From Geobacter sp. AOG2 (GTDB lineage: Bacteria > Desulfobacterota > Desulfuromonadia > Geobacterales > Pseudopelobacteraceae), in the NCBI RefSeq assembly GCF_019972295.1, contig NZ_BLJA01000001.1, forward strand, positions 62,001 through 126,000: a stretch of DNA of 64,000 nucleotides, written 5' to 3'. This document shows positions 2,830-63,423 of this stretch, one piece after another. Made by a program: the position numbers and the translations under genes. The notes beneath the pieces are model-generated. The model worked only from the letters and a program-made list of their open reading frames with translations. It did not search any database and was not told where the DNA came from. The stretch's first letter is position 1. Each line of letters starts with the position of its first letter.

Positions 2830-3336
2830 ATGATGTTTGACCGTCGCGGTTTCACGCTGATAGAGATCGTGGTGGTGCTGGCGATCATCGGCATGGTGAT
2901 GATGCTGGTCATCCCGCGCCTGCCGAACTCCGAGCGGGAGGACCTGAAGATATCGGCGCGGACCCTGGCCTCGACGCTGCGCTACCTTCAGGACCGGGCA
3001 ACCACCACCGGGACGACCTATTATCTGCACCTGGAGCCGGGCACGGACACGGTCAAGGTGATGCAGGCGGCGGGCGACGGGAGCGAAAAAGAGCCGGAAG
3101 ATCCCTTCCTGCAACAGCGGCCGACCAAGGAAGGGGTGCTGGTGGCGGATGTGGTCATCCCGCGCCTGGGCAAGCTGAGCGACGGGCAGGTGCGCCTCGA
3201 TATCGGGGCGGGAGGCCTGCGGGATTTCGTCACCATCCACCTGAGCTCGCCCGACGGCGAGTTCTGGACGGTGATGGGCTTCCCTTCCAGCGGCAAGGTC
3301 AAGGTCTACCAAGGCTACCAGGAAGATGCGCTATGA
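2830..3336 (+). CDS. gspH: Type II secretion minor pseudopilin GspH
   Basis: 168 residues with a class III prepilin signal: a short basic leader MMFDRRG followed by FTLIEIVVVLAIIGMVMMLV, the cleavage/N-methylation site and the assembly helix with Glu at +5. The length and single N-terminal helix with a beta-rich C-terminal domain fit GspH. It is the first of four consecutive pseudopilin genes in H-I-J-K order, which strengthens the assignment. It would sit at or near the tip of the periplasmic pseudopilus. The start could be either of the tandem ATGs at 2830 or 2833; the ribosome site is weak. Confidence 0.85.
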   Translation: MMFDRRGFTLIEIVVVLAIIGMVMMLVIPRLPNSEREDLKISARTLASTLRYLQDRATTTGTTYYLHLEPGTDTVKVMQAAGDGSEKEPEDPFLQQRPTKEGVLVADVVIPRLGKLSDGQVRLDIGAGGLRDFVTIHLSSPDGEFWTVMGFPSSGKVKVYQGYQEDAL

Positions 3337-3337
3337 G

Positions 3338-3553
3338 GAGGCTGTTGGAAAACTCTGGTTGTTCAAAAACAGTCAGATCGTCGCACCCGGAGGAAGCCCC
3401 GCGGAGGCAGGCCCTCTCTCTATCTCTCCCCCAGAGGGGGAGAGCATGCCTTGCCCTCTCCCTCTGGGAGAGGGCAAGGGTGAGGGTTTGCAGCGCTACG
3501 CCGCACAAAGGGGATTTCGAGGACGGCGGCGAGATGGCTGTTTTTCAACAACC
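3338..3553 (-). repeat. Dispersed modular hairpin repeat, copy 3 (reverse), provides the gspI start
   Basis: Reverse orientation between gspH and gspI. Outer ends match the family (GGCTGTTGGAAAACTCTGGT ... GATGGCTGTTTTTCAACAAC). The usual GGCGTAGC/GCTACGCC hairpin has been interrupted by a different repeat (about 3411-3486). The terminal ATG of this copy (3534) is the gspI start codon. Confidence 0.85.
3411..3486. repeat. Nested CT/GA-rich palindromic repeat inside copy 3
   Basis: Two adjacent palindromes: CTCTCCCCCAGAGGGGGAGAG-like at 3424-3444 and GCCCTCTCC-CTCT-GGGAGAGGGC at 3453-3475, followed by AAGGGTGAGGGT. This sequence is absent from the other 13 copies, so it appears to be a separate small repeat inserted in the hairpin module of copy 3. 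Confidence 0.7.
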
Positions 3554-3893
3554 ACTGAGAGGTTTTACCCTGCTTGAGGTGATGGTGGCCCTGGCCATCA
3601 TGGCAGGCGTCATCCTGACGGTGCTGGGTGCGGTCAACTACCACCTCACCATCATCACCAACGAGCGGGACAGCACCGCCCTGACCATTCTGGCGCGGGC
3701 CAAGATGTCCGAACTGGAGCGTCAGGGCATCCCCCAGAAGGCCGAGGGGACCCTGGCCCCGGACCATCCGGAAATCTCCTGGCAGGCCGAGCAGTTTCCC
3801 ACCGACCTCCCCGTGCTCCGGAAGTTGGTGCTGCGGGTGTGGCGAACCAGCGACAAACGGGAGGTGGTGCTTGAGCGCTATCTCACGAAATAA
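3534..3893 (+). CDS. gspI: Type II secretion minor pseudopilin GspI
   Basis: 119 residues: leader [10 protein letters not shown], then FTLLEVMVALAIMAGVILTV, a prepilin cleavage site with Glu at +5 and the hydrophobic assembly helix. The only ATG before the cleavage site is at 3534, inside the terminal segment of repeat copy 3, so residues 1-7 are encoded by repeat sequence. The frame stays open upstream through the repeat, but no alternative start gives a plausible leader. The mature part is short, as usual for GspI, which forms the pseudopilus tip complex with GspJ and GspK. The 3' end overlaps gspJ by 23 bases. Confidence 0.85.
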   Translation: MAVFQQPLRGFTLLEVMVALAIMAGVILTVLGAVNYHLTIITNERDSTALTILARAKMSELERQGIPQKAEGTLAPDHPEISWQAEQFPTDLPVLRKLVLRVWRTSDKREVVLERYLTK

Positions 3894-63282: not shown

Positions 63283-63423
63283 AGCAGGCTGTTGAAAACC
63301 CAGGTTGTTCAAAAATAGTCAGATCGTCGCACCCGGAGAAGGCCCTGAGGAGGCGTAGCAGCGCTACGCCGCACGAAAGGGCTTTCGAGGACGGCGGCGA
63401 GATGGCTGTTTTTCAACAACCTC
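63283..63423 (-). repeat. Dispersed modular hairpin repeat, copy 14 (reverse, short form)
   Basis: Between gspF and the phosphorylase. AGCAGGCTGTTGAAAACCCA, GTTCAAAAATAGTCAGATCG, GGCGTAGCAGCGCTACGCC, TTTCGAGGACGGCGGCGAGA, ATGGCTGTTTTTCAACAACC. Its terminal ATG (63402) is in frame with the phosphorylase, 13 codons before the chosen start. Confidence 0.9.

Follow-up and report, generated by a model that had tools for sequence, protein, structure and literature searches.

A MITE-like repeat in frame between the start codon and the prepilin cleavage site of a gspI-like gene in Geobacter sp. AOG2

The stretch of DNA under study, called the window hereafter, comprises 64,000 nucleotides (positions 62001-126000) of the 3.92-Mb single-contig genome of Geobacter sp. 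AOG2. Between its positions 2830 and 5441 it harbours gspH-, gspI-, gspJ- and gspK-like genes, of which only GspK passed the NCBIfam cut-off. The best NCBIfam match of the gspH product was GspH, with 55.1 bits at a cut-off of 80, and that of the gspI product was also below threshold (GspI, TIGR01707; 35.8 bits, cut-off 44.35). We call the latter GspI-like because of its position among the gspH-, gspJ- and gspK-like genes. Its Pfam N_methyl match (24 bits) was above the cut-off of 21.2, and the prepilin motif with G-1 and E5 is present (G/FTLLE, the slash marking the cleavage site). The genome contains one prepilin peptidase (Peptidase A24) gene. The features of the locus are listed in Table 1. 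A previous sequence-only reading of this region had taken ATG 3534, in the right end of a repeat, as the sole ATG upstream of the cleavage site. This was incorrect, as ATG 3333-3335, which overlaps the gspH stop codon, lies in the same open frame; between the two ATGs the gspI frame also contains one TTG and one GTG. The right end of the repeat does carry an ATG in frame with GspI, as had been noticed, and is linked via PLRG to FTLLEVMVAL.

Table 1. Features of the gspH-gspI junction and of one further repeat copy, in window positions.
Feature	Position	Strand	Remarks
gspH (minor pseudopilin)	2830..3336	+	stop TGA 3334-3336; Pfam N_methyl match; C-terminal end matching relatives
gspI open reading frame through the repeat	3333..3893	+	186 aa from ATG 3333
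Native gspI start codon ATG	3333..3335	+	ATGA overlap with gspH stop; same place in relatives; AGGA upstream
Target duplication TGAG, left copy, 4 bp	3334..3337	+	comparison with the empty site of relatives
MITE-like repeat copy, 218 bp	3338..3555	+	132 left and 131 right ends genome-wide; sister-species gspI without it
Conserved inner left end GGTTGTTCAAAAACAGTCAGATCG	3357..3380	+	
Palindromic interior	3407..3491	+	40-nt arms, 75% complementary; mostly not in copy 14
Repeat right end ATGGCTGTTTTTCAACAACC	3534..3553	+	alternative start ATG 3534-3536, 10-residue leader
Target duplication TGAG, right copy	3556..3559	+	native ATG appears here as CTG 3555-3557
Gly-Phe codons, prepilin cleavage site (G/FTLLE)	3561..3566	+	motif G/FTLLEVMVAL at codon 77
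Copy 14 of the repeat, right end	63402..63421	+	ATG in frame with phosphorylase gene (Pfam DUF3417 and carbohydrate phosphorylase)

When gspI was compared to that of five sister species (G004, G001, G005, G002 and G003; G002, Oryzomonas japonica, is a member of the genus of AOG2), the element was absent from all of them. They all read ...CTATGAGAGG, with the leader M-R-G, and their empty site is CTATGAGA followed by GGT. The filled site in AOG2 reads ...CTATGAG[218 bp]TGAGAGG..., in which TGAG is present twice, and the element therefore lies directly behind the start codon. Element and duplication together add 222 nt, corresponding to 74 codons, and since these are stop-free, the leader in frame comprises 77 instead of 3 residues. 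The distance between the ATG and the glycine codon is 228 nt in AOG2 versus 6 nt in the relatives, and the relatives without the repeat start at the position of ATG 3333. As judged from this comparison, the native start of gspI is kept, not replaced, and the insertion is in frame after ATG 3333. It had been proposed that the insertion replaced the native start while preserving a working class III signal. Indeed, the present leader is repeat-encoded almost throughout and the prepilin motif is retained, but the native start is still found in the ATGA overlap. The MAVFQQ peptide encoded from ATG 3534 was absent before the cleavage site in the other 29 gspI loci examined. Thus, the earlier observation was partly confirmed and its interpretation partly supported. 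We propose that the MITE-like repeat would have transposed into TGAG at the gspH-gspI overlap with duplication of this tetranucleotide, the gspH stop codon and ATG 3333 both being retained in the sequence.

The repeat noticed in the sequence-only reading is real. In the window, the right-end pattern was found at 14 places with up to three mismatches (0.00 expected), one of which (3357) is the left end of the gspI copy itself. Genome-wide it was found at 131 places with up to two mismatches, compared to none for a reversed control pattern, and the left end at 132 places with up to three mismatches. We examined 100 of the 131 right-end copies and found the left end in 99; the inner-end spacing of 64-279 bp in 99 of these 100 indicates many dispersed short copies, as is typical of MITEs, which carry no transposase gene. 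The commonest size (56 of 99 copies) has 119 nt between the inner ends and 140 bp in total by the boundaries chosen, which with a 4-bp duplication gives 144 nt and is frame-neutral. The gspI copy and copy 14 are 89-92% identical over two common stretches, with insert positions 72-144 unaligned. By eye, imperfect terminal inverted repeats were seen (AGGTTGTTCAAAAATAGTCAGATC versus AGGTTGTTGAAAAACAGCCATC, the reverse complement of the right end). Visual comparison of the copies also showed strong variation in the 19 bp farthest out on the left, and near-constancy of the right end and of the inner left end. Identical flanking 4-mers were present at a fixed boundary in 12 of 99 copies, compared to a mean of 2.05 and a maximum of 7 in 2000 shuffles; the remaining 87 had no identical 4-mers at that boundary. 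Parent elements of the IS5 type use a YTAR target and create a 4-bp duplication. YTAR was found in the right flank of 31 and in the left flank of 24 of the 99 copies, and the gspI copy has TGAG. The 19-nt right end (at most one mismatch) is present in 23 of 57 genomes, AOG2 included. At the gathering thresholds of Rfam, no family was found for the repeat. The sole Rfam match in the window was a c-di-GMP-I riboswitch (RF01051; 9937-10018, plus strand, 49.4 bits).

Read in the frame of the right-end ATG, the core contains no stop codon in 61 of 99 copies, and in 51 of the 56 that have the common length. In shuffled copies each frame was open in 22-28%, and the other real frames were open in 0-22 of 99 copies. 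When 98 other copies were placed at the gspI site in plus orientation, 40 gave an open frame, 36 a shift and 22 a stop, and in minus orientation the frame was kept open by none of the 98. Given this openness of the repeat frame and the placement counts, a readable in-frame insertion is likely without special selection.

We consider it probable that the element in AOG2 is read through in frame as part of GspI. Ribosomes ending gspH would restart at the overlapping ATG and then read through the element, and some may start at ATG 3534, which would result in a 10-residue leader. The prepilin peptidase should cut after the glycine from either start and yield the same mature pseudopilin, and the insertion would therefore be roughly silent at the protein level. 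ATG 3333 is probably the main start, as suggested by its conserved place, the overlap with gspH, the AGGA upstream and the uninterrupted frame. The length of the resulting leader argues against read-through: its 77 residues are far beyond the 6-26 residues that one review gives for leaders (PMC4471445), and the 10-residue leader from 3534 falls within that range. The native 3-residue GspI leader of the order is itself shorter than this range, and very long leaders are described for some type IVa major pilins (PMC10191384). Leader length thus also bears on a reading that we regard as possible although rather unlikely, in which most GspI is translated from the repeat's ATG 3534 and start 3333 has ceased to be productive. 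This ATG is in frame and is preceded by the Shine-Dalgarno-like GAGGACGGC, with a computed duplex of -7.3 kcal/mol compared to -4.3 kcal/mol at 3333, and in another genome, the low-coverage draft G016 described below, an insertion-made ATG appears to serve as start. On the other hand, the native ATG, the overlap and AGGA are intact and in frame, and in-frame ATGs are not in excess among the other repeat copies. Moreover, the terminal stem of the repeat includes ATG 3534, and the mean unpaired probability there is 0.25 (3518-3550) versus 0.39 around ATG 3333 (3317-3349), which is a modest gap. We give very little credence to a start at CTG 3555, by which CTG AGA GGT from the duplicated target would restore a 3-residue leader. 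This triplet series is the ancestral reading with A replaced by C, but Shine-Dalgarno pairing is nearly nil there (-1.5 kcal/mol) and CTG is a rare start codon.

The inserted DNA has a predicted fold of -121 kcal/mol (a raw value, without shuffled control), and this fold may lower expression. Such a stable hairpin, together with the location of the element at a gene overlap conserved in 131 of 134 loci, could be taken to mean that the insertion cripples gspI, either through the overlong leader or through hairpin polarity, and that the gene is heading for decay. In addition, no T2SSL Pfam match was found in the genome, which says little because this model matched just 2 of 14 control genomes. 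We regard decay as improbable, as the frame is open, no other lesion was seen and the downstream gspJ and gspK are open in the window. Furthermore, dN/dS to the nearest relative was 0.20 for gspI, 0.21 for gspH and 0.26 for gspJ, which suggests no relaxed constraint in gspI relative to gspH and gspJ, although this is a weak test that would carry little information for a recent insertion. Two observations weigh against the silent read-through that we favour. To three more distant species, AOG2 gspI gave a dN/dS of 0.32-0.41, and polarised amino-acid changes were more numerous in AOG2 than in its sister in all four genes (3/1 in gspI, 4/1 in gspH, 10/1 in gspJ and 17/10 in gspK).

As had been noticed before, copy 14 likewise has its ATG in frame with a downstream gene, and it had been suggested that the element end may generally act as a portable translation start. 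The other copies do not bear this out. Among 97 copies, 90 had a called flank and 38 faced a co-directional downstream gene; the gspI copy is outside these 38 because its stop falls in the scored stretch. The right-end ATG was in the frame of the downstream gene in 9 of the 38 cases, compared to 12.7 expected (one third). Six of these nine were uninterrupted, namely those at the genes for the phosphorylase, adenylosuccinate synthetase, LolA, a radical SAM protein, an ABC-2 permease and nuoB, and in all six another start codon follows 36-51 nt farther on, mostly with a Shine-Dalgarno-like string. Since in-frame ATGs did not exceed the one-third expectation and further starts exist in every uninterrupted case, the portable start was rejected as a general rule. 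The phosphorylase gene itself probably starts at ATG 63441, which is preceded by AAAGAGG. By our own start rule, the repeat lies 8-31 nt upstream of the gene start in 32 of the 38 cases; these copies thus sit roughly at the ribosome-binding site, and the gene retains that site. A second repeat-made start was considered for nuoB and also rejected, as a TTG behind CAGAGG is found at the same place in all six genomes of the genus. The insertion upstream of nuoB, between nuoA and nuoB (L162, L179 and L180), is common to three species of the genus, and its repeat ATG is in frame in one of them and out of frame in G002 and G005.

We also compared 134 gspI loci from 131 Geobacterales genomes. In 132 loci, no more than 12 codons separate a start of the NTGA type from the cleavage glycine, and in 98 of the 134 the nearest start lies just two codons before the glycine. 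In 131 of the 134 loci the gspH/gspI overlap is kept together with a start no farther than 12 codons from the glycine. The overlap was counted when the upstream frame spanned 60 codons or more or extended to the edge of the fetched sequence, and the latter applied to 104 of 132 loci; 35 of 132 upstream C-termini, including that of G016, were off the narrow GspH motif, and the other 34 were GspH-like by eye. The three exceptions, AOG2, G022 and G016, each have an insertion at the start of gspI. In G022 the insertion is in frame, with MRAET followed by 48 more codons up to the glycine. This insert occurs once in the G022 genome. Dispersed sequence matching it, in some cases over a short length, was found in 33 of the 141 genomes searched in the order, a count that includes G022. 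The dispersed sequence is a second palindromic repeat of about 140 bp, with the ends GACTCGTGCAAAAC and GTTTTGCAAGAGTC in G022; it was also seen in G023, G001 and other genomes, with up to at least six matches per genome. The AOG2 and G022 inserts have nothing in common beyond a 7-base chance match.

In G016 the insertion is out of frame. The frame beginning at GTG terminates there at a TGA, and a new ATG overlaps this stop codon (ATGA) and opens the leader MTFRKSLKG. The insert is 77% identical over 131 nt to the second repeat by blastn at the locus, and a genome-wide search for this repeat in G016 gave no matches. As G016 is a draft with a coverage of 3.86, the frameshift may be a sequencing error. 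With this reservation, the mechanism of the sequence-only reading, which does not apply to gspI of AOG2, may hold in G016 with a different insert. The examined congeners of G016 and G022 have kept the short leader, and the insertions therefore look recent; those of G016 and G022 may share an origin or be independent of each other. A hot spot at gspI is not claimed, as the search that gave 3 cases in 131 genomes set out from a known one. By an estimate made by hand, with tens of copies in some genomes and some thousands of gene borders, it would be no surprise to find a few insertions at any one border.

These cases tentatively suggest that mobile repeats can land safely in a cleavable prepilin leader, where an insert may be translated and afterwards cut away by the prepilin peptidase, leaving the mature pseudopilin unchanged. 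At Geobacterales gspI this pattern would be represented by two unrelated elements, each once in frame, in addition to one insert that appears to have founded a new coupled start. In-frame insertion of a MITE as such is already known. Rickettsia palindromic elements are described as short, palindromic and mobile, with one open frame, and occur in frame in protein-coding genes (PMC10969869). The AOG2 repeat resembles them, by their description, as a short palindromic mobile element that lies in frame in a gene. In contrast to these elements, which are found in many genes, none of the 99 AOG2 copies was scored with coding sequence on both flanks in one open frame, the coding sequence before the element in gspI being too short to score, and the gspI copy occupies the cleaved-off leader. 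In Coxiella, QMITE2 lengthens enhC by 33 residues (PMC5896051). There, as in AOG2, a MITE adds residues to a host protein, but the addition is C-terminal, whereas in AOG2 it lies between start codon and prepilin cleavage site. A MITE of 178-235 bp, Chunjie, is described in Geobacter uraniireducens (PMC10969869). By its description, it is likewise a MITE, in a relative of AOG2. By the title of its original paper, Chunjie is said to lie in an operon with undisturbed structure. In Geobacter sulfurreducens, Richter et al. reportedly described in 2012 two PilA isoforms arising from two translation starts. Like GspI of AOG2, PilA would be a prepilin for which two starts, and hence two leaders, are possible; a mobile element is not known to be the cause of the isoforms. 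Our literature search found no published report of a MITE inside a prepilin leader, and none joining GspI, MITEs and type II secretion.

The AOG2 element is thus an ordinary mobile repeat in an unusual place, and the tolerance of a cleavable leader for insertions is the more interesting reading. Should the long leader be synthesised and cleaved, a host protease would clean up after a mobile element at the level of protein, akin to splicing for introns, and processing of class III leaders would tolerate lengths between 3 and 77 residues. For annotation, a gene caller may choose ATG 3534 and thereby hide the native start.

Six copies have an open frame into downstream coding sequence (those at gspI and nuoB, and L028, L109, L117 and L150), and at L147 upstream coding sequence enters the element. 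In 25 of 50 called cases with a convergent gene, its stop codon starts 2 nt beyond the right end, and in 34 of 50 the distance is 0-4 nt. This anchoring of the right end to gene edges may reflect target preference or selection. The left end is looser, with stops at 17-20 nt in 15 of 43 cases and starts 27-372 nt away in 39 cases.
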